From Frankiales bacterium (GTDB taxonomy: Bacteria > Actinomycetota > Actinomycetes > S36-B12 > CAIYMF01), in NCBI GenBank assembly GCA_016125335.1, contig WGLY01000017.1, forward strand, positions 1 to 64,000: a stretch of 64,000 bases of DNA, written 5' to 3'. Position numbers and translations under genes: made by a program. The notes beneath the pieces are model-generated. The model searched no databases. It was given only the letters and a program-made list of their open reading frames with translations, and was not told the DNA's origin. Positions 2 through 20,104 of the stretch are shown piece by piece (positions within the stretch are counted from its first letter, which is position 1; every line of letters starts with the position of its first letter).

Positions 2-2086
2 GGCGCTTGGACCGCCGCCTCGACTGAGAGGCTCGCGCAGTTCCTGGCTGCACAGACGCAGGCCTCGCCGTCCGAGCTGCAGGGTCTCGACGATGACGCA
101 GCCCGATTGCTGGCCGCAGAGGCATTCGCGCTGCTGCTCGGCCCCTTGTCCGACATGGTGGGCTCGACCAAGCGCAGTAGGGTCCGTTCGCCTCTCCTGC
201 TCGCCAGCGATCCGCCAGGTCTTCCGCGGCAGCTGTCGGCCGACCTCGAGCATGGGTTCGTCCGGGCTGGCAAGTCCTTCCAGGCCGACCCTTTCGCGCG
301 GTTGCGCGCCCTGCTCACTGTGCTGACCCACTGGTGGTCGGTGCCGACTTCCCGACGCGACACAGCATGGACCGACCCCTGGGCATTCCGCGATCTGGTC
401 AGCGAGGCTCAGGCCGACCCTCGAGTGGCCGCCATGCTCTGCCTCGCCGCGCACCCGAACCAGTTCACGACGGTGCTCGCGCCGGAAGACCGTCTCAGCA
501 TCGTCGAGGCCTTCGGAGATCGGCTGGCGTCAACCACTGGCGACACGGACAAGGACCTCCGCGACATCGTGCTCGCACTCCAAGCCGAGAACGACGGACG
601 CGGCGTCGACCTCGACGCCCCGCCCTGGTCGACCGCCTGGAGCGGCAGTGTCGACAACGGCGGCGCCTGGCTGGTGCGCAGCCAGGTCGACCAGCGCGAT
701 CGCGTGCCCACCTGGGTGGGGGCTGGAAACGTCAGCCTCACGGTCGGGCGCGTCCGCTCGCTGCCCACCGACCTCACGCAGGGAGCGCTCGGGCAGCTCG
801 TCGACGACCTCTACTCGGACCTCCCGGTCGTCAAGCGCGAGGCGAAACGTCGCGACGTGCTCGCCTTCACCCTGGGCGTACGCCCCGGCGACATCGTCGC
901 CACCGATGCCGGAGGCCACCTGCTGCTCGGCCGCGTGCAGGAGGGGGAGGTGACGCTGGATTCGGTGGGCGGCACCTCGGTGCTGCTGCGCCCGGTGACC
1001 TGGTCGGTGGGGGAGGGGCCTGCGATCACGGACCTCCCGGGACCAGTGCGCACCCGGCTGCGGTTCAAGGGCGAGGACGTCGTCAACCTCACCGACATCC
1101 TCGACGAGCTCGAGAACCTGGAATCCGGAGACCAGCCGGCGCCCGAGGAGCCCGATCAACCGGACGTCCCTCTCGACGAGCCCGTACTCGCCGTGGCGCG
1201 GCTCTCCTGCGACACCGTGTCCTTGGCGGCCCTGCTGCACCATGAGAACGACTCCTGGTTGCGCGAGCTGCTCGTGAGTCTCAACGAGCGCAAGCAGGTC
1301 ATCCTCGAAGGCCCTCCAGGAACGGGCAAGACGTACGTGGCCCAGCGGCTCGTCGAGGCCTGCGGACTCACGGAGAACCAGTGGGCGCTGGTGCAGTTCC
1401 ACCCGACCTACAGCTACGAGGATTTCGTCGAGGGCTTCCGCCCGACGGGGACGGACGAGTCCGGTGCGAGGCTGTCCGTCGTGCCGGGGCCTCTGCGACG
1501 CATCGCCGAGGAAGCCGGCAAGGCCCCCGGTAAGCCGCACGTGCTGGTGATCGACGAGATCAACCGAGCCAACATCGCCAAGGTCTTCGGCGAGCTGTAC
1601 TTCCTGCTCGAGTACCGCGACCGGGAGATCGAGCTGCTCTACAGCGAGGGTGAGCGGTTCGCTCTGCCCGACAACCTGTTCATCGTCGGCACGATGAACA
1701 CGGCAGACCGGTCGATCGCCCTGCTGGACGCAGCCATGCGTCGGCGTTTCGTGTTCCTAGGGATGGACTCCGACGAACCCGCCCTCAACGGAGTGCTGCG
1801 ACGGTGGTGCCAGGCCAACGGCGTTCCCACGGCGATCGCCGACCTGCAGGACCGCATCAACGCGACGATGCGGGACGCTGGACTTGAACCCGCCCTGGCG
1901 TTCGGACCGTCGTACTTCATGCGCCCCTCGCTGACCGACCCTGAGGCTCTCGGCCGGCTGTGGCGCCGTGAGCTGCTGCCAATGCTGCGCGAGCACCACT
2001 ACGGCGACGACGAGACTCTCAAGCGCTACCGCTTCGACCAGTGGTGCAGCGAGTTCGGACTGGCCGGCGATGGCCAGCCGCGCTGA
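2..2086 (+). CDS. mcrB: McrB-type AAA+ GTPase subunit, 5'-truncated by window edge
   Basis: NTP-driven motor subunit of a modification-dependent McrBC-type restriction system; it would translocate on DNA and drive the McrC nuclease. The reading frame is open from base 2, so the true start lies upstream and the N-terminal DNA-reading domain is not visible. The AAA+ core shows Walker A GPPGTGKT (nt 1310-1333), the family motif YSYEDFVEGF, Walker B-like VIDEINRAN and the McrB signature MNTADRS beginning at nt 1694. A small domain before the ATPase (GVRPGDIVAT ... LLLGRVQ) looks like a PUA/EVE-type barrel. The stop overlaps the start of mcrC by 17 bp, indicating translational coupling. The GTPase assignment is by family; sequence alone does not show nucleotide preference. 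Confidence 0.9.
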   Translation, partial: GAWTAASTERLAQFLAAQTQASPSELQGLDDDAARLLAAEAFALLLGPLSDMVGSTKRSRVRSPLLLASDPPGLPRQLSADLEHGFVRAGKSFQADPFARLRALLTVLTHWWSVPTSRRDTAWTDPWAFRDLVSEAQADPRVAAMLCLAAHPNQFTTVLAPEDRLSIVEAFGDRLASTTGDTDKDLRDIVLALQAENDGRGVDLDAPPWSTAWSGSVDNGGAWLVRSQVDQRDRVPTWVGAGNVSLTVGRVRSLPTDLTQGALGQLVDDLYSDLPVVKREAKRRDVLAFTLGVRPGDIVATDAGGHLLLGRVQEGEVTLDSVGGTSVLLRPVTWSVGEGPAITDLPGPVRTRLRFKGEDVVNLTDILDELENLESGDQPAPEEPDQPDVPLDEPVLAVARLSCDTVSLAALLHHENDSWLRELLVSLNERKQVILEGPPGTGKTYVAQRLVEACGLTENQWALVQFHPTYSYEDFVEGFRPTGTDESGARLSVVPGPLRRIAEEAGKAPGKPHVLVIDEINRANIAKVFGELYFLLEYRDREIELLYSEGERFALPDNLFIVGTMNTADRSIALLDAAMRRRFVFLGMDSDEPALNGVLRRWCQANGVPTAIADLQDRINATMRDAGLEPALAFGPSYFMRPSLTDPEALGRLWRRELLPMLREHHYGDDETLKRYRFDQWCSEFGLAGDGQPR

Positions 2087-3329
2087 CCTCGAACGCCTCG
2101 CCGAAGGACAGGTCCTCGACGACGTACCCCTCGACCGGGCCGAGGCGGTCGCGCTCAACGCCACCAAGCTGGTCAGCGTCGCACCTGGCGCGCATGGCTG
2201 GAGGGTGACGGCGGCGTACGCGGTCGGCGCGCTGCAGTGCGGCGAGTTGACCGTCCGGGTTCGGCCCAAGGTCGGCGTGCTGCAGGTACTCCGGCTCCTG
2301 GCCCGCTCCCACGGGATCAGCCTGATCGCGCTCGACGACGCTCGCGTGGGGCTCACCGACGACACGGACCTCACCACGGTCCTGGCGGTGCTGTTCGCAC
2401 GCGAAGCCGCCTCAGCGCTGGCCGGCGGCCCCATGCGCGGCTACCGCACCGAGGACCAGACCCTGCCGGTGCTGCGGGGCCGGATCCGCCTGCGCGACCA
2501 GGAGCTGCGCCGGTTCGGGGCGCTCGTGCCACTCGAGGTCACGGTCGACGAGTGGACCACCGACAGCGACGACAACCGTCGGATCCGGGCGGCGACGCGG
2601 CGACTGCTGAGCATCCCCGACCTGCCCGACAGTGTTCGGCACCGCCTCAGCCATGTCGACCGCCTCCTCGCCGTCGTCCATGTCGCGCCGCGGGGCGGAG
2701 TGGTCGCGCCTTGGACACCGACACGCCTGAACACTCGGCTGCACCGCCTGCTCCACCTTGCCGACCTCGTCCTCGACCAGGCGACCGTGGAGCACCGGGT
2801 TGGTGACGTCCAGGTGCACGGGTTTGTCCTGTCGATGTGGACCCTGTTCGAGCGCCTCGTGACCAAGTTGCTCCAGGAGAACCAGGGCTCGCTCCAGGTC
2901 ATGGCTCAAGAGACGCACGACCTGGACACACGAGGCCGGCTGAGCATCCAGCCGGACATCGAGATTAGGGACGGGCGCGTCGTCGTCGCGGTCGCGGATA
3001 CCAAGTACAAGCTGCTCGACGACAAGGGCAAGTTCCCCAACGCCGACGCCTACCAGCTGGTGACGTACTGCCGGCGCCTCGGGCTCACCACCGGCCATCT
3101 CATCTACGCCGCAGGCGACGCGCAGCCCGAGCCCTACGAGATCGTTGGGGCCGGTGTGCAACTGGTTGCCCACACCGTCGACCTGGCCCAGTCGATTACA
3201 GACGTGGAACGACAGGTTGGCTCTGTGCTTCGACGAATCTCAGGAGCGAGCGACACCACCGGGCTGAACCCAAGAAGCGGCGCCTTCTATTCAGCGGCCA
3301 CCGTGCTCAAGGTCGGAGCGACTGACTAA
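2070..3329 (+). CDS. mcrC: McrC-type nuclease subunit
   Basis: Nuclease partner of the preceding McrB-type motor, predicted to cleave DNA carrying modified cytosines. 419 residues from the ATG at 2070, chosen because it overlaps the mcrB stop and begins MASRADLER; a longer upstream reading only runs in the shadow of mcrB. The N-terminal half has the McrC beta-rich fold (ELTVRVRPKVG) and the C-terminal part has a PD-(D/E)xK nuclease signature: PDIEI followed by VADTKYK, then YQLVTYCRRLG. Together with mcrB it forms a complete two-gene cassette. Which modification is recognised depends on the McrB N-terminus outside the window. Confidence 0.88.
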   Translation: MASRADLERLAEGQVLDDVPLDRAEAVALNATKLVSVAPGAHGWRVTAAYAVGALQCGELTVRVRPKVGVLQVLRLLARSHGISLIALDDARVGLTDDTDLTTVLAVLFAREAASALAGGPMRGYRTEDQTLPVLRGRIRLRDQELRRFGALVPLEVTVDEWTTDSDDNRRIRAATRRLLSIPDLPDSVRHRLSHVDRLLAVVHVAPRGGVVAPWTPTRLNTRLHRLLHLADLVLDQATVEHRVGDVQVHGFVLSMWTLFERLVTKLLQENQGSLQVMAQETHDLDTRGRLSIQPDIEIRDGRVVVAVADTKYKLLDDKGKFPNADAYQLVTYCRRLGLTTGHLIYAAGDAQPEPYEIVGAGVQLVAHTVDLAQSITDVERQVGSVLRRISGASDTTGLNPRSGAFYSAATVLKVGATD

Positions 3330-3356: not shown

Positions 3357-4400
3357 ATGCCGCTCGATGTGGGGTTGTGGCGTGTCGACGGGGGCTTCAG
3401 CCGCCTCGAGGCCTCAGGGATGCCAACGGAGAGGCGACTCGAGGATCTCATCGAGGCAGACCCCTCTGTGTTGGGCACTCCGCTTCTGATCTTGGGACGG
3501 CAAGTCGCGACCCCGCACGGCAAGTTTGTGGATCTCCTCGCGATCGATGGTGACGGGGCCTTGCACGTTCTGGAGCTCAAACGCGACAGGACGCCCCGCG
3601 ACGTCGTAGCGCAGACCCTTGACTACGGCTCGTGGGTTCAGACCCTCTCGCACGACGACGTGCGCGAGGTCTACGAGAAGTACCGGGGTCCCGAGCAGGC
3701 GTTCGAAGAGGCATTCGAGGAGACGTTCGGCGTAGCACCGCCTGACGAGCTCAATGTGGAGCAGACCCTCACCATCGTCGCGGCCGAGCTCGACTCGGAG
3801 AGCGAACGGATCGTGGACTTCCTGGCCGGAACTTTCGGTGTCCCCATCAACGCCGTCTTCTTCCGCTATTTCCGCGACGGAGATCGCGAGTACGTCGCTC
3901 GGACGTGGTTGCGGGAGCAGGCTTCGGATCCCGTCGCGAAGGCAGGCGGCGGCAGGAAGCTGAAGGAATCTTGGAACGGCAAGGACTGGTACATCTCATT
4001 CGGTGACGAGGAGACCCGCGACTGGGAGGACGCGCGGGAGCACGGGTTCGTCGCAGCCGGCGGAGGAGAGTGGTACAGCAGATCTCTGCGCTCGGTCCCG
4101 GTCGGAGCGTGGATCTGGGTCTGCATACCCAAGACCGGTTATGTCGGCGTTGGCGAGGTGGCCGGCGACGCCGAGCCGTTCACCGGTTCCCGCTTCGCTG
4201 GCCAGCGTCTTCGCGCGTCGTACTCTCACGCGAATGGCGAGGACGAATGGGTCCTGCCCGTCAACTGGCTCCAGACCCGGTCTCGAAGCGAAGCGGTCTG
4301 GCAGAAGGGCATGTTCGCGAACCAGAACTCCGCCACGCGGTTGAGGAGCTCCTTCACCCTCGACGTCCTTCACCGCGCGTTTCCTGCGGCGTCCGATTAG
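3357..4400 (+). CDS. NucS/DUF91-like nuclease with C-terminal reader-like region
   Basis: Predicted PD-(D/E)xK nuclease of the NucS/DUF91 group. 347 residues. The N-terminal 110 residues carry the nuclease core: FVDLLAIDGDG (metal-binding Asp), LHVLELKRDR (ELK motif) and AQTLDYGSWV (helix with conserved Gln). The C-terminal third (IWVCIPKTGYVGVGEVAGDAEPF) looks like a small PUA/EVE-type barrel that could read a modified base or a nucleotide; this is inference. It starts 27 bp after mcrC with GGAGGCGGG before the ATG, so it may belong to the McrBC transcript. Housekeeping NucS mismatch endonuclease has a different N-terminal dimerisation domain, so this is more likely an accessory or defence nuclease. 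Confidence 0.72.
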   Translation: MPLDVGLWRVDGGFSRLEASGMPTERRLEDLIEADPSVLGTPLLILGRQVATPHGKFVDLLAIDGDGALHVLELKRDRTPRDVVAQTLDYGSWVQTLSHDDVREVYEKYRGPEQAFEEAFEETFGVAPPDELNVEQTLTIVAAELDSESERIVDFLAGTFGVPINAVFFRYFRDGDREYVARTWLREQASDPVAKAGGGRKLKESWNGKDWYISFGDEETRDWEDAREHGFVAAGGGEWYSRSLRSVPVGAWIWVCIPKTGYVGVGEVAGDAEPFTGSRFAGQRLRASYSHANGEDEWVLPVNWLQTRSRSEAVWQKGMFANQNSATRLRSSFTLDVLHRAFPAASD

Positions 4401-10833: not shown

Positions 10834-11541
10834 TCACAGGCCCAACTGGGCGATGCGGGCGTTCCTGTTAGTGGTGAAGCACATCGCTGCGTCGCGGTAG
10901 GAACGGTAGGAATCCACGTCGTGAGGGACCGCTGGGGGGCGGAAGTCGTCGAAGGGCATCAGGAACCGAACCGTGCCCGTTCGTTCGTCGACGAGATCCT
11001 GGAGCAGGAAGAAGTCCACGTAGCCGTGGAAATCGACGAAGAGGTCGAAGAAGGTCCGGTACCGGGCGAGCACCGAGTCCAAGGGGCTGGGCTCGCCTCG
11101 GTAGTGACGCCTGATGCACTCGAGCGTGAGGTCGAAGCGGTCGGCGATCGTGCGACTGAACCCTCGCGCACCGTTGATCGTCATCATGCCGTCGATCTTG
11201 TTCCCCGGGAACACGATGTAGCCGCCGATCGTGCAGGCGAGTGTCTCGAACTGCTCCATCTCCGCTGGATCGAGCTCGCTGACGATCGGATGCATCGACT
11301 CCCAGTAGGAGTAGGTATGCACGATCGAGTCGCTCGACAGGTAGTGCTCGCCGACTGTCGAGCTGTGATGCAGGTAGGCGTCCGGGATTGTGTCGCTCAG
11401 CTCGAAGACGACGCCGTTCGGCAACGGCCGGCTCCAGAGAATCTGGTGGTAGCGCCGGAGAGTCGCGCTGTAGCGATCGGGATCCTGCCCGTCGCTGTCC
11501 GAACGCGTGTCGAACCCGACGTCGATGAGTGAAGGTGTCAC
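10834..11541 (-). CDS. DUF6994 family protein
   Basis: 235-residue cytosolic protein of unknown function. The GTG at 11541 is preceded by GGGGAG. Recognisable family features are GFDTRSDSDGQDPD at the N-terminus, YSATLRRYHQILWSRPLPNG, and the SSDSIVHTYSYW and FPGNKIDGMMTINGARG segments. No catalytic motif that I can name. It lies downstream of the Nudix-type regulator on the same strand, with a 15-base palindrome in between, so it may be a separate unit. DUF6994 genes occur in variable chromosomal regions; a defence link is guesswork. Confidence 0.6.
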   Translation of the reverse strand: MTPSLIDVGFDTRSDSDGQDPDRYSATLRRYHQILWSRPLPNGVVFELSDTIPDAYLHHSSTVGEHYLSSDSIVHTYSYWESMHPIVSELDPAEMEQFETLACTIGGYIVFPGNKIDGMMTINGARGFSRTIADRFDLTLECIRRHYRGEPSPLDSVLARYRTFFDLFVDFHGYVDFFLLQDLVDERTGTVRFLMPFDDFRPPAVPHDVDSYRSYRDAAMCFTTNRNARIAQLGL

Positions 11542-11599: not shown

Positions 11600-12253
11600 T
11601 CAGTGGCGGAACATGCGTGCGGGCCTGCCGACTTCGCCGGCGGTGCGCTCTCCCGTCGGTCGCAGCTGCGGCTCCATGAGTCGCCGGAAGGTGTCGCGCT
11701 GGAGTTCGCGTCCTGCGACAGCCTCGTGCACCCGACGGAGCTGGGCGAGGGAGAACGGCTCGGGGACGAGACGCCGCGGGTCGGGGTGCTCGGCGTACTG
11801 GTCCCTCAGCGCATCCACCGCGCGTCGCACCACTTCGGCGTGGTCGAACGCGAGGCGCGGTAGCGAATCCACGGGCGCGAGGCGGACGTCGTCGCCGTCG
11901 GAGAGCTGCGGGGCGAGCGACTCGTAGGGCGAGGTCTCGAGATGAGCCACCGACAGCACCCAGCCGCGGGCGTCACGGTGTGGGTCGTCGAGCACGACGA
12001 GCTGCTGGGGGGAGAGGCCGGTGACACCGGCCTTGTCGCGCAGCGACCGTCGCACGGCGTCCGCGAGCCGCTCACCCTCGTGCAGGAAGGTGCCGGGCAG
12101 CGCCCACGCGGGGCGCATGCCGGCCGGCCGTCGAACCAGCAGCACCGACAGGACGTCTCCTGGCGCCACGGTGAGAACGGCGGTGTCGACCGCCACGCTC
12201 GGGCGCGGGAAGTCGGTGAGCGGTCGCTCTGCGCCGTTCAGGTGATCCTTCAC
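11600..12253 (-). CDS. NrtR-like regulator: degenerate Nudix domain plus winged helix
   Basis: Predicted ligand-sensing transcription factor of 217 residues, GTG start at 12253. The N-terminal 140 residues form a Nudix domain (VLLVRRP, WALPGTF), but the Nudix box reads GERLADAVRRSLRDKAG: the REUxEE metal-binding core is replaced by RS-L-RDK, so hydrolysis is unlikely. The C-terminal 70 residues (PEPFSLAQLRRVHEAVAG ... RDTFRRLM) match the winged helix of NrtR-type regulators, which sense ADP-ribose or related compounds. It is divergent from the ADP-ribosylglycohydrolase operon with a 40-bp palindrome 12 bp from its start, suggesting it controls both directions. Confidence 0.78.
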   Translation of the reverse strand: MKDHLNGAERPLTDFPRPSVAVDTAVLTVAPGDVLSVLLVRRPAGMRPAWALPGTFLHEGERLADAVRRSLRDKAGVTGLSPQQLVVLDDPHRDARGWVLSVAHLETSPYESLAPQLSDGDDVRLAPVDSLPRLAFDHAEVVRRAVDALRDQYAEHPDPRRLVPEPFSLAQLRRVHEAVAGRELQRDTFRRLMEPQLRPTGERTAGEVGRPARMFRH

Positions 12254-12265
12254 GGCTCTGATTTA

Positions 12266-12305
12266 AGCAGAGTTGCGCTAACTCCAGCAATAGCGCAATA
12301 CTGCT
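12266..12305. promoter_or_regulatory. 40-bp operator-like palindrome between NrtR-like gene and ADP-ribosylglycohydrolase operon
   Basis: Left arm AGCAGAGTTGCGCTA (12266-12280) and right arm TAGCGCAATACTGCT (12291-12305) flank 10 bases. The inner 8 bp (TTGCGCTA/TAGCGCAA) pair perfectly and 13 of 15 positions pair overall. The site sits 12 bp upstream of the regulator start and 32 bp upstream of the ADP-ribosylglycohydrolase start, the usual place for autoregulated divergent control. Confidence 0.7.
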
Positions 12306-12337
12306 CAAAGTCACACCGGATCACCGAGGGGGACGTC

Positions 12338-13432
12338 ATGACCGCTGCTGCACCCACCGATGCCTGGGCCTACCTTCTGGCGGAGACCGGCACGGGGCCG
12401 GGCTCGCCTCCTCCGGTGCTGGCCGCGGCGACACCGTCCGACGGTCTGCGCGACAGGTTCGTCGCCACGATCGTCGGAGGCGCGGTGGGGGATGCGCTCG
12501 GCCGTCCCGTCGAGCGTTGGGCTCGCGAGGATGTCGCCTCCACCTACCCGGACGGGCTGCGCGACTACGTGAGGAGCCCGGGAGACGGTTCCGGCCCGGC
12601 CGGGACGATCACCGACGACACTCAGCTCTCGCTGGAGGTGGCCCGCTGGCTCGTGGCGGGTGGCGTCGACGATGTGCCGGATGCCGCAGAGTTCGGCCGC
12701 CGCGTGGCTGCCTGGGGACCGGTCGCGATCATGGCCGGCGAGGGGTCCGAGGGCTCCGCTCGCCGACTCGCCGCGGGTGACCCGTGGTGGCTGTCGGGTC
12801 GCCCCACCATCGGGAACGGCGTCGCGATGCGATCCGCAGCGATCGGTCTCCGCTACCAGGGCGACGGCGGCCGGATCCGTGAGGCGGTCGCGAGGTCCGG
12901 CATGACGACGCACCGGCACACAACTGGTGTGGCCGGCGGCGTCATCATCTCCTCGCTGGTGAGCCACCTCCTCGCCGGTGATGGCCAGGAGCCCGACGTC
13001 GCCGCCGCGCTGGACGCAGCCGTGAGCGGGCTCGACGGCGTCCGGCTCGAAGGGCACCCGGTGGGCGCCGGGCCGGCGACGGCCACCCTCGTCGAGAGTG
13101 TGCGCTCGATCGAGTCGATGCTCCACCTGACGACCCACGAGGTGTTCGACCACTTCTTCAACGGCTCGCGGGTCACCGAGAGCCTGCCGTGCGCGCTGTG
13201 GCTGTTCTTCCGCTACGGCCACGACCCGGAGCGGCTGCTCGTCGAGGCCGTGAGTGGTGGACGGGACGCCGACACGATCGCGGCGATGTGCGGCAACCTC
13301 GCAGGTGCCCGGCACGGCCTCGACGCGTTCCCCGCCCGCTGGACCGGCGACGACCTGGAGTTCCGCGACGAGCTGGAGACGCTGGCGCTCGAGCTGTACC
13401 GCCTGTGGGCGGCGGAGAGGGGGTCGCGATGA
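12338..13432 (+). CDS. ADP-ribosylglycohydrolase (DraG/ARH family), first copy
   Basis: Predicted hydrolase that removes ADP-ribose from modified protein, nucleic acid or small molecules. 364 residues; the ATG at 12338 has CGAGGGGGAC before it. All family metal-site motifs are present: GGAVGDALG (about 47-55), TDDTQ (92-96), GNGVAMR, MTTHRHT and GRDADTIAAMCGNLAGA (RDAD at 309-312). A 30-residue N-terminal extension (DAWAYLLAETG) precedes the fold. It is the first gene of a tightly packed operon: its stop overlaps the next start as ATGA. Confidence 0.88.
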   Translation: MTAAAPTDAWAYLLAETGTGPGSPPPVLAAATPSDGLRDRFVATIVGGAVGDALGRPVERWAREDVASTYPDGLRDYVRSPGDGSGPAGTITDDTQLSLEVARWLVAGGVDDVPDAAEFGRRVAAWGPVAIMAGEGSEGSARRLAAGDPWWLSGRPTIGNGVAMRSAAIGLRYQGDGGRIREAVARSGMTTHRHTTGVAGGVIISSLVSHLLAGDGQEPDVAAALDAAVSGLDGVRLEGHPVGAGPATATLVESVRSIESMLHLTTHEVFDHFFNGSRVTESLPCALWLFFRYGHDPERLLVEAVSGGRDADTIAAMCGNLAGARHGLDAFPARWTGDDLEFRDELETLALELYRLWAAERGSR

Positions 13433-14133
13433 CGACGACCAGTCAGGCCCGGGCGAAGCCCGTCAAGACCCTGCGGCGAGACCAGGTGGAGCACGCCATC
13501 TACCTCGACTTCGAGGGCAATGTCGACTCCGCGCCGTCGCTGCTCGGAGTGCTGGTCGACGACGAACTCGTCCAGTACGTCGTGGAGCCGGCGATGTGGG
13601 CCATGCAGCACGACGGGCCCGGTGGACCCATCGCCCTGACACTCGAGGACGCCCTCGCCGATGTCGTGCGGCGCTACGGCGAGGATCGCACCGTTCTGGC
13701 CTACACGTGGCACGACCGCACCGTGATCGATGACTTCGCCGAGCCCACCACGACATTGCGCTGGCACGGCCGGTTCGTGAACGCCAAGCTCGTCGCAGAT
13801 CGCTGGGTCAACAGCGGTCGAGCCGTGGCGTTGCCCACGTGGGCGCCGGACGGCACGTTGGCCTCCTACCTCAGACTCATCGGCTATCGAGTCCCGCCCG
13901 CTCAGGGGCGGAACGTCGCGGGTCCTGGTCTCAGGCGCGTGCGGCGGGGACTGGAGCGGACGCATGGTGATCCCACGGCGTTGACGAGCGGGACGAAGCG
14001 ACACTGGACTCGCGTGCTGGGGCACAACAGGCACGATCTGGTGGGCCTCCGGGCCCTCATGCGGCACGCGGCGCTGGACACCGACCAGGAGGTCCATCGG
14101 TCGTGGGTGGCCACCGCCGCATCGGACGCGTGA
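13429..14133 (+). CDS. RNase H-like (DEDD-type) protein within the ADP-ribose operon
   Basis: 234 residues, start ATG at 13429 overlapping the previous stop by 4 bp. The N-terminal strand IYLDFEGN and the late segment GHNRHDLVGLRALM match the first and last acidic motifs of the RNase H-like domain seen in COG2251/YprB proteins; VLAYTWHDRTVIDDF fills the middle position. The same domain type appears inside the large nuclease-helicase at 7244 (FFDFEGDP ... NHYDC). It is therefore a candidate 3'-5' exonuclease or nucleic-acid binding subunit. The stop lies 75 bp before the second ADP-ribosylglycohydrolase start. Activity is inferred only. Confidence 0.6.
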   Translation: MTTTSQARAKPVKTLRRDQVEHAIYLDFEGNVDSAPSLLGVLVDDELVQYVVEPAMWAMQHDGPGGPIALTLEDALADVVRRYGEDRTVLAYTWHDRTVIDDFAEPTTTLRWHGRFVNAKLVADRWVNSGRAVALPTWAPDGTLASYLRLIGYRVPPAQGRNVAGPGLRRVRRGLERTHGDPTALTSGTKRHWTRVLGHNRHDLVGLRALMRHAALDTDQEVHRSWVATAASDA

Positions 14134-14207
14134 CAGCCAACGACGTCGTGCCGGGAGACCCCAGCGTCGGTGTCGTCTGGCAGGCTCGGATCACGAGGGG
14201 GACGAGG

Positions 14208-15152
14208 ATGGACACAACTTCCGCCAGAGCCGCGGGGTCGCTGGTAGCGATGGCGGCGGGCGACGCGCTCGGGGCGCCGTACGAGTTCCGGCCGCCGCTG
14301 CCGGCGACGCAGCCGGTGGTGATGAGCGGGGGCGGGTCCTTCGGCTGGGAGCCGGGGGAGTGGACCGACGACACCTCCATGGCGGTTCCGCTGCTGGAGG
14401 CGGCCGAGAGCGCACACGCGGCGGGGCACGAGCTGCTCGACGGGCTCGACGACGTGGCCGGCGCCTGGTGCGACTGGGCGCTCACCGCCCCCGACGTCGG
14501 CTACCAAACCCGGGCCGTGCTCGGCGGCGCGTGGCAGGACGGCGACCTCACGGCCGACGCGCTGCAGCGAGGCGCACATGCCCTCTACCGCGCCACGGGG
14601 CGAGCCGGAGGCAACGGGTCGCTCATGCGCACCGCCCCGGTGGCGCTGGCCTACCTCGGGCGCCGCGACGACATCGCCGCCGCGGCCCGCGCCGTCAGCG
14701 ACCTCACCCACGCGGAGCCCGACGCCGGCGACGCCTGCGTGCTGTGGTGCCTCGCCATCGACCACGCGATCGAGACGGGTGATCTCGACGTCCGCACGGG
14801 GCTCGACCACCTGCCGGGAGAGAGGCGGGACCGCTGGGCCTCGCTGATCGCCGAGGCGGAGGCGGTGCCGCCGGTGGGGTTCGAGAACAACGGGTGGGTG
14901 GTGCACGCCTTCCAGGCAGCGTGGTCGGCCATCTCTCGGACGCACGGGGACGACCACGTGCGTCGGGCTCTCGAGGCCGCCGTGCGGGCCGGGCGCGACA
15001 CCGACACGGTCGCCTGCATCACCGGCCAGCTTGTGGGTGCGGCGTACGGCGTCGACGCCGTGCCCGGCGAGTGGGTGGAGATCCTGCACGGCTGGCCGGG
15101 CATCTCCGGCGTCGAGCTCGGGGAGCGGGCGGCCGCCCTGGTGGCCCCGTGA
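14208..15152 (+). CDS. ADP-ribosylglycohydrolase (DraG/ARH family), second copy
   Basis: 314 residues. The ATG at 14208 (MDTTSARAAG) was preferred over an in-frame GTG at 14103 because of the upstream GAGGGGGACGAGG and because the fold begins directly after it. Motifs: AMAAGDALGAPYE, EWTDDTSM (WTDDT 52-56), GGNGSLMRTAP, LTHAEPDAGDAC and GRDTDTVACITGQLVGAAYG (RDTD 263-266). Metal-binding residues are intact, so it should be active. It is clearly diverged from the first copy in the same operon, which suggests different substrates. Its stop overlaps the GTG start of the downstream helicase. Confidence 0.87.
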   Translation: MDTTSARAAGSLVAMAAGDALGAPYEFRPPLPATQPVVMSGGGSFGWEPGEWTDDTSMAVPLLEAAESAHAAGHELLDGLDDVAGAWCDWALTAPDVGYQTRAVLGGAWQDGDLTADALQRGAHALYRATGRAGGNGSLMRTAPVALAYLGRRDDIAAAARAVSDLTHAEPDAGDACVLWCLAIDHAIETGDLDVRTGLDHLPGERRDRWASLIAEAEAVPPVGFENNGWVVHAFQAAWSAISRTHGDDHVRRALEAAVRAGRDTDTVACITGQLVGAAYGVDAVPGEWVEILHGWPGISGVELGERAAALVAP

Positions 15153-16765
15153 CGCCGCGCCTGATCCCGCCCGATCCCGACTTCCGCTCGCCGGCGGAGC
15201 GCAAGCTGTGGCAGGCGCTGAAGTCGGCCCTGCCCCCGGAGGCGTTCCTTGCGGCGAACCTCCGGGTGAGCTCGCACGAGGACTTCTACGAGGCCGACCT
15301 GGTGGTGGGCCTGCCGGAGCAGGGCTTCGCCGTCATCGAGGTCAAGGGCGGCCGGGTGGCGCACACCGACTCGGGCTGGGTGCAGTACACCCGCGAGGGC
15401 GCGAAGGCGATCGACCCGGCGTACCAGGCCGACCGGGTCAAGCGGTGCCTGGACACCTACGTCCGCGGTCGGCACTGGACGCACGGCCCTCTGCGGTTCG
15501 AGCACCTCGTCGCCTTCCCGGATCAGGACTTCGACGCCGAGTCGCCGGCACCGGACCTGCCGCGCTGGCAGCTGATCGCGCAGAACGACCTCGAGGACGC
15601 CGCCGGCCGAGTGTGGGACGCGCTCGACAAGCGGCTCACCGACAAGAGGCGACCGTCGGCCGCCTGGGTCGCCGAGCTGGCCGACCTGCTCGGAGGGCGA
15701 CCCGAGCCGGCTCGCGAGCTGCTGGGCACCGCCGTGGCGCGCGAGGAGCACGTGCGGCTGCTCACCGAGGCGCAGTACGCGGTGCTCGACAACCTCCGCG
15801 TGGCTCAGCGGGTGCAGGTCATCGGCGGCCCGGGCACGGGCAAGACCTGGCTCGCGATCGAGCAGGCCCGGCGATGGGCCGACGAGGGTCATCGGGTGCT
15901 GTTCGTGTGCTACTCCCGAGGCCTGGCCCAGTGGATCCAGCAGGCGATCGCCGCGCGCGGGCCGAAGGTGCAGCGACGCGTCGACGTCTCGACGTTCTCG
16001 GCGTACCTCGTGCGGCTCAGCGGCGCGCAGGTGCCCGAGGGCGCCGACCAGAGCTGGTGGGACACGGTGCTCCCCGAGCTCGCCGCGCCGCACATCACCG
16101 CCGACTACGACGCGATCGTCGTGGACGAGTCGCAGGACTTCGCCGGGGGATGGTGGCCGGTGCTGCTGTCGGCCTCGCGCGGGCGCCGGCTGTTCGTCGC
16201 CGGCGACCAGCACCAGACGGTGTTCGCCGGGCGCAACGGTGCCCCCGACGTCGAGCTGCTGCCCTTCGTGCTCAACGAGAACCTGCGCAACACCAGCCAG
16301 ATCGTCTCGGTCTTCTCCCCGCTCTCGCCGGACAAGCAGCGGCACCGTGGCGGAGACGGCCCGCCTGTGCGCTTCGTCCCCTGCCGCACCGAGGAGGCGC
16401 ACGACGTCGCCGATCGCGAGGCGGAACGGCTCATGGAGGCCGGCCACGAGCCTGGCCACATCGCCCTGCTTACCACGCAGCACCGGCACACCTACCAGCT
16501 CGGCCAGGAGGCCGAGCTGGGCAAGGACGGCTACTGGCAGACCTTCGGCCTCGGCGACGAGATCTTCTACGCCACCGTGATGGGCTTCAAGGGACTCGAA
16601 CGCCCCGTGGTGGTGCTCGCCGTCGACGGCTTCCACGACGGCGTGGCCCGCGACGTCATGTACGCCGGTCTCTCCCGCGCCCGAGACGAGCTCGTCGTCG
16701 TGGGCGACCTCGATCTCATCCGAGAGACCTGCGGCGACGAGGTCTGCCGGCGCCTCATCCAGTGA
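15149..16765 (+). CDS. NERD-domain nuclease / SF1 helicase
   Basis: 538 residues from the GTG at 15149, which overlaps the preceding stop (GTGA). The N-terminal NERD nuclease-related domain carries the acidic and lysine residues (EAD at 48-50, VIEVKGG with Glu64 and Lys66). The UvrD/Rep-like helicase follows: GGPGTGKT (226-233), IVVDESQDF, FVAGDQHQTVF, NENLRNTSQI, MGFKGLERPVVVLA and YAGLSRARDELVVVG. It is the last gene of the four-gene ADP-ribose operon and converges with a second NERD helicase. NERD-helicase proteins occur in phage-defence and plasmid loci; coupling to ADP-ribose enzymes suggests joint action on nucleic acid. Confidence 0.8.
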   Translation: MTPRLIPPDPDFRSPAERKLWQALKSALPPEAFLAANLRVSSHEDFYEADLVVGLPEQGFAVIEVKGGRVAHTDSGWVQYTREGAKAIDPAYQADRVKRCLDTYVRGRHWTHGPLRFEHLVAFPDQDFDAESPAPDLPRWQLIAQNDLEDAAGRVWDALDKRLTDKRRPSAAWVAELADLLGGRPEPARELLGTAVAREEHVRLLTEAQYAVLDNLRVAQRVQVIGGPGTGKTWLAIEQARRWADEGHRVLFVCYSRGLAQWIQQAIAARGPKVQRRVDVSTFSAYLVRLSGAQVPEGADQSWWDTVLPELAAPHITADYDAIVVDESQDFAGGWWPVLLSASRGRRLFVAGDQHQTVFAGRNGAPDVELLPFVLNENLRNTSQIVSVFSPLSPDKQRHRGGDGPPVRFVPCRTEEAHDVADREAERLMEAGHEPGHIALLTTQHRHTYQLGQEAELGKDGYWQTFGLGDEIFYATVMGFKGLERPVVVLAVDGFHDGVARDVMYAGLSRARDELVVVGDLDLIRETCGDEVCRRLIQ

Positions 16766-16811: not shown

Positions 16812-19022
16812 TCAAAATTGAGCGGAGAGCACACTCTCCTCGTCCGGGCGGTCGTCGCGGGGCGCGGATCGAGTTCGTGTTCCGAGCCAGAGGCGGTCCC
16901 TTGCGCGCGTCATAGCCACGAAGAGTTGGCGGCGCTGCAGCTCGGCGCGTTCCGCGTAGGTGGCGTCGCTCTCTCCCGCGCGCTGAGGTTCGACGGCGGC
17001 GTCGTGGTCCGGCAGGAAGACCGCGGCGAACTCGAGGCCCTTGGCGCGCTGATAGGTCCCGACCTTCACGGCGTCGACGGTGACGCCGTCGTAGTCGCTG
17101 AGGAGCACGGAGGGGACGCCGAGCCCGTACAGAAGGTCCCGCCACCGACGTGCCTGCACGTTGGAACGGACGAGCACGGCCATGTCGCCGCGCCGGTGCT
17201 CGCGGCCGGCCCAGCCCAGCGCTGAGTGCAGGGCCGCGACAAGGGACTGCTCGTCGTCGGCCCGGACCTCGAGCACTCGACCACCCGGCCGTGCCACCTC
17301 GACCTCGCGAGCTCCAGGCTCGGGCACGGCGTCGAGGTCGTCGAAGGCGTCCGACGAGAGGAGCTGCAGGGAGCGGCTGAGGATCTCGGCGCCGTTGCGG
17401 TAGTTCATGGAGAGGACGGCTGCTCTGCCACCGGGCACGTAGACGCCTGCTTCACGGAGGGTGAAACCGCCGGGGTAGACGGCCTGCTGTCCGTCGCCGA
17501 CGAGAAGGAGGCCGTCGTCGGCGTCGCCCACGAGGGCGTGCAGGAGGCGCAGCCCCTGGCAGGTGAGGTCCTGCACCTCGTCGACGATCACCGACGTGTA
17601 GGCGGGGTCGATCGGCTCGGCGCGCACCGACGCCAACGCGGCGTCGATGACGTCGGCGAAGTCGATGAGTCCGCGCTCGGCGAGCGCCTGCTGGTAGCGC
17701 TGGTAGAGGGTCCACACCTGGCGTCTGGTCGGCTCCTGCAGCGGAGTGCGTCGGCCAACGCGGGTGAGCGCGAGGTACTCCGCCTCAGAGCGCAGGCCGC
17801 GCCCCTTGATGACGGCGTGGATCTCGTCCCACCAGTAGTCCTCGGAGTCGACGACGGAGAGCAGCGCCGCACGGTCCGCGGACCTGGTCCACACCTCGCG
17901 GAAGCAGCCACGTCCGCCGTTGGGTGCGATCTCCGCGGGCATCGCTCCGCGCCCGCGGAGGAGACGGGTCGCCCAGGCGTGCACGCCGACGAACTCGACG
18001 CGTGCGGCCTCCGCGGGCGCGAGCCGTGCGAACAAGCCCCGGTGCACCTGGGGGAGCGTGCGCACGAACGAGGTCACGAGCACCCTCGAGCCGGGACGCC
18101 GGGCCAGCAGTCGGGCCCGGTGCAGGGCGACGACGGTCTTGCCCGTGCCGGCCGCTCCGCGGATGCGGGCAGGCCCGTTGTAGGGGCGGGTCACCAGCTG
18201 CGCCTGGAGAGGGTGCAGCCATGTCATCCAGCTCTCGATCGGCTCGCGCTCGGCGGCCGCGATGAGCTCCTGCCAGACGTCCCCCTCGTCGAGCAGCGCC
18301 AACGGCTCGCCACCGGGTCGGTCGCCCCCGTGTGACGGAACCTCGCGTCGTACAGCGGGACCGCTGATGGTGCGCCGGTCGGGCGTCGCGCCTCGTGACG
18401 CAGGCGGACACGTCTTCTCGAGCGCGGTGACGACGGCGGCGATCTCATCCGTGCCCAGTCGCACTGGCAACCGGATCAGGCTGCGGTGGATGCTGCGCTC
18501 CCCGACGACATGCACGCCTCGAACGAGAACGGGTGCCAGCAGGCGACCGGCCAGCACGAGGAACGGCTCGACAGCCGCCGCCGAGAGCCCCGTGCCTGTC
18601 AACGCATGAGCGACGGCTTCGGCTTGGTCCCGCAGCGAGTCGAGCTGGTCGTCCTCGTTCGCGTCTCCGTTCCACAAGCTTCCCCGCTCGATCCGGGGAT
18701 GTGCCCACTTCTTCGAGTCGAGCACGAGGACGCCGGGTGGTCCCACCAGGAGCAGATCGAGGTTGGCGTGCCGGCTCCCCGGCCACCGCCGATCGGCCAG
18801 GACGTGCCAGTCCGTGGAGCCGAGGTCGACGAGCACCTGCTCCACTCGATCGGCGACAGCGCGTTCGCCCTGTGCCCCGGCTCGGAAGCTCGCCGACCGG
18901 CGACGGAGGTCCCCGAGGATCTCGGTGAGGGTCCGCAACTGCCACTCGACGGCGTCGGCCAGCTCGTCGCTGAGCGCCGCCTGCTCCAACGCCGATCGAC
19001 CAGCGTCGTTCGTCGCCATCAT
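16812..19022 (-). CDS. NERD-domain nuclease / UvrD-like SF1 helicase, second copy
   Basis: 736 residues from ATG at 19022, preferred over the GTG at 19037 because GGGGG lies just upstream. The N-terminal region has a coiled segment, then a NERD domain (HANLDLLLVGPPGVLVLDSKK, Asp89, Asp102, Lys104). Helicase motifs: GAAGTGKTVVALHRAR, VIVDEVQDLTCQG, LLLVGDGQQAVYPG, MNYRNGAEIL, YQRAKGLEFAAVF and LFVAMTRARDRLWLG. It is convergent with the operon helicase (46 bp between stops) and divergent from the HNH gene. Larger than the first copy, mainly through the N-terminal part and 2A/2B-like insertions. Confidence 0.8.
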   Translation of the reverse strand: MMATNDAGRSALEQAALSDELADAVEWQLRTLTEILGDLRRRSASFRAGAQGERAVADRVEQVLVDLGSTDWHVLADRRWPGSRHANLDLLLVGPPGVLVLDSKKWAHPRIERGSLWNGDANEDDQLDSLRDQAEAVAHALTGTGLSAAAVEPFLVLAGRLLAPVLVRGVHVVGERSIHRSLIRLPVRLGTDEIAAVVTALEKTCPPASRGATPDRRTISGPAVRREVPSHGGDRPGGEPLALLDEGDVWQELIAAAEREPIESWMTWLHPLQAQLVTRPYNGPARIRGAAGTGKTVVALHRARLLARRPGSRVLVTSFVRTLPQVHRGLFARLAPAEAARVEFVGVHAWATRLLRGRGAMPAEIAPNGGRGCFREVWTRSADRAALLSVVDSEDYWWDEIHAVIKGRGLRSEAEYLALTRVGRRTPLQEPTRRQVWTLYQRYQQALAERGLIDFADVIDAALASVRAEPIDPAYTSVIVDEVQDLTCQGLRLLHALVGDADDGLLLVGDGQQAVYPGGFTLREAGVYVPGGRAAVLSMNYRNGAEILSRSLQLLSSDAFDDLDAVPEPGAREVEVARPGGRVLEVRADDEQSLVAALHSALGWAGREHRRGDMAVLVRSNVQARRWRDLLYGLGVPSVLLSDYDGVTVDAVKVGTYQRAKGLEFAAVFLPDHDAAVEPQRAGESDATYAERAELQRRQLFVAMTRARDRLWLGTRTRSAPRDDRPDEESVLSAQF

Positions 19023-19098
19023 CGAGACCCCCGTCACCCTGTGGTCATCGGCCTCGAGAGTAGGTCCTTGAGCGTCCCTCGGTGGCAGCTTGCGGTTT

Positions 19099-19132
19099 GC
19101 GACAGGCCTAGAAGGCCGTCTGCGTCTGTCGC
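19099..19132. promoter_or_regulatory. Inverted repeat in divergent promoter region
   Basis: GCGACAG (19099-19105) and CTGTCGC (19126-19132) flank 20 bases that include GGCCTAGAAGGCC. It lies between the NERD helicase (minus) and the HNH gene (plus), where a shared operator would be expected. Confidence 0.35.
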
Positions 19133-19174
19133 GGATAGTCCTGTAGGCGCGCTGCCCGTGGCTAAGCTGCCTAC

Positions 19175-20104
19175 GTGCGGTACTGGTGGGTGAATCAGAA
19201 CCAGACCTATCGCCATGAGGTCCCGGGCGGCTACCTCTGGTCGCCTGTGACGCGAGCAGATGGCGTTCGCAACTACTTCTACGACACGATGACGGAAGTC
19301 CAGCCCGGCGATGTCATCTACTCGTTCAGTGACACGTTCATCAAGGCCGTCGGGATCGCAACGAGTGCCGCCGAGCCGTCGGTCAAGCCCGACTTCGGCG
19401 GCGCCGGAGACAGCTGGGCGAACTATGGCTGGCTCGTTCAGGTCGAGTTTCAGGAGTTGGACAAGCCCATCCGACCCAAGGACCACATGGCCGTGCTAGC
19501 CCCGCTCCTGCCGTCCAAGTACGCACCACTTCAGGCGAACGGCAACGGCCTTCAAGGGGTCTACCTGACGGAGTTGCCCCTTCGGCTTGCGTCGGCGCTG
19601 GATGCCATGGTCGGCGAGCAGGCCCAACTCACAGCCAACGACGTCCTGGCAAAGCCGGATCCCCTTTCGTTGCTGGAGGTCGAGCTTGAATCGCTCATCG
19701 GCCGTGTCGACCTGCCTGCAACCGAGAAGCGACAGTTGATCAACGCACGTGTCGGGCAGGGTCTGTTCCGCAACAATGTGCGGCTCAATGAGCAGGCCTG
19801 TCGCGTAACCGGAGTGCGTCAGTTGCATCACTTACGGGCCAGCCACATCAAGCCCTGGCGCGAGTCAAGCGATGTAGAGAAGCTCCACGGCTGCAACGGT
19901 CTACTGTTGGCGCCGCACGTCGACCACTTGTTCGATCGCGGATTCATCTCGTTCGAAGGTGATGGCAGTCTGATCGTGAGCGAGGCGATGGAGCCGGAAG
20001 TCTTGGATGCCTGGGGCATCGCTGAGCTGCAAGCCCCCCGCGCGTTCAATGTGGATCAACGACACTTCCTCGAGTTCCACAGGAGTCAGGTGCTGATCGC
20101 CTGA
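19175..20104 (+). CDS. HNH endonuclease with N-terminal reader-like domain
   Basis: Predicted restriction-type endonuclease of 309 residues, GTG start at 19175 (MRYWWVNQNQTY). The N-terminal 110 residues (YLWSP, NYFYDTM, VQPGDVIYSF, AVGIA) look like a PUA/EVE-type domain that reads modified bases. The C-terminal part is a canonical HNH fold: LHHLRASHIKPWR, CNGLLLAPHVDHLFDRGFISF. The combination resembles stand-alone type IV or modification-dependent enzymes. It is the last island gene before a perfect 25-bp inverted repeat and the higher-GC core region. Confidence 0.8.
   Translation: MRYWWVNQNQTYRHEVPGGYLWSPVTRADGVRNYFYDTMTEVQPGDVIYSFSDTFIKAVGIATSAAEPSVKPDFGGAGDSWANYGWLVQVEFQELDKPIRPKDHMAVLAPLLPSKYAPLQANGNGLQGVYLTELPLRLASALDAMVGEQAQLTANDVLAKPDPLSLLEVELESLIGRVDLPATEKRQLINARVGQGLFRNNVRLNEQACRVTGVRQLHHLRASHIKPWRESSDVEKLHGCNGLLLAPHVDHLFDRGFISFEGDGSLIVSEAMEPEVLDAWGIAELQAPRAFNVDQRHFLEFHRSQVLIA

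Follow-up and report, generated by a model that had tools for sequence, protein, structure and literature searches.

Conflict systems centered on ADP-ribosylglycohydrolases (ARG-centric systems) are predicted in section 3.8 of PMC9503650 (Viruses 2022), where the proposal is that they reverse ADP-ribosylation by viruses and that the ADP-ribose released induces them; within that section they stand as predictions, with no bench test. The parts named there are Nudix and WYL regulators, phosphatases, chaperones, restriction endonucleases (REases), helicases, and ARPP, Macro and NADAR proteins; a Nudix or WYL one-component regulator is given for >42% of the systems and a coupled phosphatase, which is not obligatory, for little over 55% (PMC9503650). 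NrtR regulators are described, in the part of PMC6800001 drawn on here, as known for nicotinamide adenine dinucleotide (NAD) control and ADP-ribose binding, and ADP-ribose is reported to release one of them, MsNrtR, from DNA. Here, we analyze a locus in a 64,000-nucleotide stretch of a Frankiales bacterium (contig WGLY01000017.1, positions 1 to 64,000; hereafter, the window), in which an NrtR-like gene faces an operon coding for two ADP-ribosylglycohydrolases (ARH1 and ARH2), a protein with a predicted exonuclease fold and a NERD superfamily 1 (SF1) helicase (Hel1). By analogy, the locus appears to be a new actinobacterial variant of the predicted ARG-centric systems, since relatives (genomes G166 and G276 in our numbering) and plasmids carry parts of that class. 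We put at roughly 60% the probability of the reading as a whole, that is, an ARG-centric variant with NrtR on paired operators, induction by ADP-ribose, two hydrolases and a nuclease second line. It builds on the anatomy of the locus, its operator-like boxes, the pairing of NrtR with ARH2, the helicase linkage and the predicted exonuclease fold; from these we infer the ligand, repression, enzyme activities, substrates and anti-phage role.

Coordinates below are those of the window, and the Pfam and family scans of neighbors cover 14 window proteins in 0-20.1 kb. The features are the following:

10834-11541, minus strand: DUF6994 protein, 235 amino acids (Pfam PF22507, 1.1e-92)
11600-12253, minus strand: putative NrtR-like repressor, degenerate Nudix sensor plus NrtR winged helix (Pfam, NCBIfam, phmmer to PDB)
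12262-12281, minus strand: likely NrtR operator box 1, TTAGCGCAACTCTGCTTAAA read on the minus strand (matrix from 12 other-genome sites, genome scan, inverted-repeat arm)
12290-12309, plus strand: likely NrtR operator box 2, ATAGCGCAATACTGCTCAAA (matrix from other genomes, genome scan, inverted repeat)
12338-13432, plus strand: ARH1, ADP-ribosylglycohydrolase, 364 amino acids, MJ1187/DraG/ARH3-like (PF03747 1.8e-58, PDB relatives, motifs)
13429-14133, plus strand: protein of predicted DEDD 3'-5' exonuclease fold, 234 amino acids, rare family (AlphaFold2 model, VIA-align, family alignment)
14208-15152, plus strand: ARH2, ADP-ribosylglycohydrolase, 314 amino acids (PF03747 8e-50, PDB relatives)
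15149-16765, plus strand: Hel1, NERD-SF1 helicase, 538 amino acids (PF08378, AAA_19, UvrD; PADLOC)

The gene arrangement reported in a preliminary description of this DNA, four co-directional genes divergent from an NrtR-like regulator, is confirmed by gene starts and overlaps read directly. The ARH1 and exonuclease genes share ATGA (13429-13432) and the ARH2 and Hel1 genes share GTGA (15149-15152), all four on the plus strand, with nrtR on the opposite strand facing ARH1; the gap described as 75 bp exists between the exonuclease gene and ARH2, its true length being 74 bp (14134-14207). That description had missed the DUF6994 gene behind nrtR, the two likely NrtR boxes and the defense-type neighborhood. 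The DUF6994 gene lies downstream of nrtR on the same minus strand, 58 bp away, and the two may possibly be co-transcribed; no DUF6994 homolog was found in the ARH loci of relatives, which were searched with nine window proteins.

The regulator combines, as the NrtR class requires, a Nudix-like domain with the NrtR winged helix (Pfam NUDIX 1.9e-09 and NrtR_WHD 5.7e-13; phmmer 2.8e-22 to PDB 3gz5/3gz6), and the canonical Nudix box pattern is absent, in agreement with the degenerate-Nudix regulator first described. A predicted palindromic operator sits at its own divergent promoter. The operator seed was picked by eye from the NrtR-ARH2 intergenic regions of relatives; sites with fewer than 13 seed matches were dropped and 12/18 regions kept, which have a common box of about TTAGCGCAnATnTGCGCAAA. 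With a matrix trained on these 12 sites of other genomes, no window site being included, the window boxes score 19.5-20.9 bits, against 9.4 for the next best site in the 64 kb and a maximum of 9.4 bits in random 84-bp window pieces (n=2993). Together, the two boxes make up an inverted repeat of 19 nt, spaced by 10 nt, and box 2 ends 28 bp upstream of the ARH1 start. On a plasmid of Rhodococcus sp. DN22, outside the training set, NrtR also faces an ARG, with two boxes (26.7 and 19.7 bits) at the same position. Scanning the window's own genome with the pattern from its two sites, at up to three mismatches, gave two further places, each with three mismatches, and one in the reversed control; since the operator scans show no clear further site in the genome, the regulator appears to be dedicated to this operon. 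The nad-type NrtR box of mycobacteria has another sequence, given in the part of PMC6800001 consulted as GTTTTCGA-N7-TCGAAAAC.

The conserved core of the locus is the pair of NrtR and ARH2. We examined ARH2 loci of 54 genomes, 39/63 of the other genomes from a phylum search plus 15 from a genus search, with flanks of varying length, some ending at contig ends; in the window's own family and order the flanks covered were those of Hel1 and the exonuclease. In 21/54 loci, NrtR and ARH2 are no more than 2.5 kb apart, and in all 21 they are divergent. The helicase follows the same pair: a Hel1 homolog (E <=1e-20) is found in 10/54 ARH2 loci, 9/21 with NrtR vs 1/33 without. In the g42 genus (60 genomes), ARH2 is present in 17, Hel1 in 20 and both in 14 (Fisher p 1e-6, uncorrected for kinship); ARH2 and Hel1 lie within 10 kb in five of these 14 (G211, G906, G913, G915 and G918), and on different contigs or ~19 kb to far apart in the other nine. 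In genome G166 (L162/L101), a single stretch contains NrtR, ARPP-1, an ARG whose C-terminus is weakly DSPc-like, TY-Chap3 and Hel1, a gene set made of parts named in section 3.8 of PMC9503650. As for the helicase itself, it matches NERD (6.1e-08, Pfam), SF1/UvrD-type models and the PADLOC model RTasNERD-Hel (5.2e-31), and retains the Walker A, VVDESQDF and IEVKGG motifs. Around other members of these families, a Macro gene follows ARH2 in G276; a SIR2_2 gene, a calcineurin-like phosphatase, a NERD-SF1 helicase and a TM0106 homolog surround ARH2 and NrtR in G603 (L167); another SIR2_2 gene lies beyond NrtR in L152; and in L162 (4467-7076) a single open frame apparently joins a ResIII helicase to sigma-70 regions 1.2, 2 and 4.

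A number of results weigh against the ARG-centric reading. A box of >=16 bits is present in 13/21 NrtR-linked ARH2 loci vs 1/33 without NrtR, a contrast that is largely circular, as the training sites come from 12 of these 13 loci; the box is not universal, since of the nine NrtR-linked loci outside the training set G295 alone (17.8 bits) reaches 16 bits, and four of the eight NrtR-linked loci without a box belong to g42. NrtR was found in one of six ARH2 plasmid regions viewed (Rhodococcus), ARH2-type genes being present in 36/72,556 plasmid records (1e-20). The window locus has no fused phosphatase. No strong NrtR box precedes Hel1 genes elsewhere in the loci scanned; upstream of Hel1 in G211 (L160, 15030-15049) there is an imperfect, weakly NrtR-box-like palindrome of 12 bits, TTACCGCAAATATCGGGAAA, which may belong to another regulator or be due to chance. 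We had considered control of unlinked Hel1 genes by NrtR, and dropped it because no box of >=16 bits was found near Hel1 in those loci. Finally, in G755 NrtR faces pnuC and a nadR-like gene, followed by ARH2, a metabolic setting. This arrangement, together with the NAD control and ADP-ribose binding of the NrtR family (PMC6800001, as above), fits a metabolic module, in which NrtR would gauge NAD turnover through ADP-ribose, the hydrolases would feed NAD or ribose-phosphate salvage, and nuclease and helicase would be unrelated neighbors. However, the 14 window proteins scanned include no product of an NAD gene, the genome has no clear second operator, the box is unlike the mycobacterial nad-type one from PMC6800001, and the helicase tracks NrtR-ARH2; we consider the metabolic module improbable.

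The gene content, too, weighs against the ARG-centric reading. In the phylum search (E <=1e-20, own genome included), 33/396 genomes have an ARH1-type and 64/396 an ARH2-type gene; three have both, adjacent in the window genome alone, and the full gene set was seen in this genome only. The preliminary description had named rare adjacency in relatives as what would speak against its four-gene operon, and ARH1 and the exonuclease were seen beside ARH2 in this genome only. A conserved four-gene system was thus rejected, the exonuclease family being rare and without ARH at seven outside loci, and ARH1-ARH2 adjacency 1/396. At 19/33 other ARH1 matches examined, no NrtR, Hel1, TM0106 or exonuclease gene was found nearby, and the one other ARH1 match in the family (G010, 33%) is weak and located elsewhere. 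Seven other genomes of the family have a Hel1 match (in G016 the first part only), with no ARH or NrtR around the best match in the flanks examined (4.4 kb in L020). In G010, of the same genus, TM0106, Hel1, HNH and the second helicase (Hel2) stay near each other with no cassette gene, and the closest Hel1 homologs of the family (65 and 60% identity) also lack cassette genes in the flanks examined. These Hel1 loci of the family would suit a chance assembly, in which an NrtR-ARH cassette landed beside a stand-alone NERD helicase in a helicase/nuclease island, the GTGA overlap being recent and the partners of Hel1 being TM0106, HNH and the second helicase. We regard this as unlikely, if deserving of attention: several g42 genomes, along with G166, G295 and G603, have a Hel1-type helicase close to NrtR-ARH2, so the link between Hel1 and the cassette is not private to the window genome. 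What survives of the functional proposal first made is the link of a regulator, from a family that senses ADP-ribose, with an ARH and, in relatives, also with a NERD-SF1 helicase; the conserved four-gene system does not. A phage-borne module was also dismissed: peptide-pattern scans of viral_contigs, in which single-protein queries detect close relatives only, turned up no relative of ARH1, ARH2, the exonuclease or DUF6994. Hel1 had no plasmid match at 1e-40.

Both hydrolases belong to PF03747/ADP_ribosyl_GH (1.8e-58 for ARH1, 8e-50 for ARH2) and keep the metal motifs TDDT and GRDADT/GRDTDT, as these are generally defined; like the NERD helicase, they had been recognized correctly from the start. 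The best PDB matches are MJ1187, DraG and ARH3 for ARH1, and 2cwc and 6dre for ARH2, 6dre presumably representing the Tri1 group. Because their best PDB relatives differ and their mutual scores are weak, ARH1 and ARH2 are taken, on sequence grounds, as members of different clades. ARH2 has 314 amino acids and no second domain in Pfam, the C-terminal phosphatase-like domain of several relatives being missing (a DSPc-like C-terminus is found in 4/6 ARH2 relatives scanned, one of them above the Pfam cut-off). Considering its likeness to 6dre and to the NCBIfam model of the Tri1 immunity hydrolase (1.6e-28; 99.5 bits, far below the cut-off of 490), both hydrolases might be orphan antidotes to an ADP-ribosylating effector of rival bacteria, with no anti-phage role. 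Such simple toxin immunity would need neither the restriction-type neighbors nor the nuclease and helicase partners nor an ADP-ribose sensor, and we give it little credence. The closest ARH1 homolog of the phylum search (L118, G721; 40% identity) adjoins an N6_N4 DNA methyltransferase gene.

The 234-amino-acid protein between them had no match at 0.01 in Pfam, PADLOC or NCBIfam. Its AlphaFold2 model (mean predicted local distance difference test, pLDDT, 82.2; predicted template modeling score, pTM, 0.81; 8-row alignment) matched mostly PolB-family polymerases in VIA-align, with Z 13.2-14.7 in the 50 rows shown, above the level that the tool calls common, and root-mean-square deviations of 2.4-3.0 over 158-171 residues in the tighter matches; Foldseek alone gave no match to the model with E <=0.001. 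The protein is thus predicted to have a DnaQ/PolB-type DEDD 3'-5' exonuclease fold, and the earlier label "RNase H-like" holds at the fold level, the model matching PolB-type 3'-5' exonuclease domains. DEDD exonucleases carry four acids, D-E-D-D, and a Y or H in motif III (Yx3D or Hx4D). In the family alignment, with motifs as commonly known, the candidate catalytic acids D27, E29, D96 and D203 line up with this set; position D96 is E in seven relatives, L037 lacks motif I, and motif III reads Hx3D, intermediate between the two known forms, with His where DEDDy enzymes have Tyr. For a common origin with the RNase_H_2 domain of TM0106, which we had considered, hhalign gave a probability of only 13.7%, though the aligned stretch includes the expected motif II. 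The family is rare (own genome included, 1/17 family, 3/166 order, 2/394 class and 3/396 phylum genomes; six loci in genome_contigs, three of them identical with the places in G046, G067 and G534), and none of its relatives was found in plasmids or phages. Seven distinct loci lie outside the window (L037 weak), with no ARH in the flanks examined (3.1 kb in L025; one short side in L024, L033 and L037). In L036 and L034, the homologs come after a gene for DUF499/HEPN_Swt1 and one for a ResIII helicase, which suggests an unnamed defense-linked exonuclease family.

On sequence grounds, the likeliest role of the locus is the reversal of ADP-ribosylation, and the regulator probably senses free ADP-ribose, as its family does. 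In the ARG-centric reading, the NrtR-like protein would repress both transcripts from its two inverted operators until an ADP-ribosyltransferase of a phage or a toxin tags host molecules and basal ARH activity frees ADP-ribose; this would lift NrtR off the DNA and induce the operon. ARH1 and ARH2 would then remove ADP-ribose, each from its own type of linkage or substrate, and the DEDD exonuclease and the NERD nuclease-helicase would form a second line by breaking down DNA or RNA that is damaged or comes from the invader. The repression and induction steps draw on knowledge of the NrtR family, and we infer the action of exonuclease and helicase on nucleic acid. That an ARG is paired with an exonuclease both here and, in a different form, on a plasmid of Pimelobacter is a hint of a nucleic-acid target. 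The operon might act directly on ADP-ribosylated DNA or RNA, since a section heading of PMC11833690 assigns the reversal of phosphate RNA ADP-ribosylation to macrodomain- and ARH-like hydrolases. Taken to its end, this would make the locus an inducible clean-up device in which the helicase opens the modified DNA or RNA, the two hydrolases, differing in specificity, free bases or ends of ADP-ribose, the exonuclease trims the strand laid bare, and ADP-ribose is both product and alarm, with positive feedback, a version that we consider a long shot. Being compact, with few genes, candidate operators and a regulator that seems dedicated to it, the locus makes both the sensing of released ADP-ribose and the undoing of phage or toxin ADP-ribosylation directly testable.

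The surroundings count in favor of a conflict system, the neighbors of the module being McrBC, a PDC-S11 candidate, a TM0106-type nuclease-helicase, a second NERD-UvrD helicase and an HNH gene. The McrBC-type restriction system, a pair of AAA_5 ATPase and McrC genes (107-3329), lies at the margin of this island, with the PDC-S11 PADLOC candidate (3.7e-136; 3357-4400) immediately behind the McrC gene. On the other side (16812-20104), the NERD-UvrD helicase is convergent to Hel1 and the HNH protein lies further out; both have homologs together in G010 (L022).

We recognized no account of this gene composition in the literature covered, which mostly leaves out subscription papers; the preliminary description knew of no named system either, which needs correcting, a predicted class of this kind being in print in section 3.8 of PMC9503650. 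RTasNERD-Hel, listed in PADLOC with defense-associated reverse transcriptases, shares the NERD-SF1 helicase, whereas no reverse transcriptase was found among the 14 window proteins scanned. With the NrtR regulators of NAD metabolism (M. smegmatis MsNrtR; the PDB 3gz5/3gz6 group), the window shares a Nudix-like sensor with a degenerate box, the winged helix and a divergent promoter with a palindromic box; unlike them, its regulator faces an ARH in place of nad genes, and differs in box sequence and in having no clear second site in the genome. In the operon of Pimelobacter simplex plasmid pA-N39 (L198), the gene after an ARH2-type ARG codes for a TM0106-family protein whose RNase_H_2 domain is of exonuclease type; the combination of ARG and exonuclease-type domain thus recurs. 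This operon also codes for ARPP-1 and REase-ARP and for a DSPc-like domain that scores weakly (21.1 bits, cut-off 33.5), with no NrtR homolog in the stretch. The ARG-centric systems share with the window the Nudix-HTH regulator (here with operator-like boxes), the ARG core, an REase-fold nuclease plus helicase (here NERD-SF1), variable accessory genes, actinobacterial occurrence and the lack of a coupled ADP-ribosyltransferase, no such enzyme or sirtuin family being found among the neighbors scanned. The window, in contrast, has no phosphatase, ARPP or chaperone among the proteins scanned, and it adds two ARGs of putatively different clades, an inserted protein of predicted DEDD exonuclease fold, and a protein that unites NERD with the SF1 helicase and whose gene is joined to the operon.

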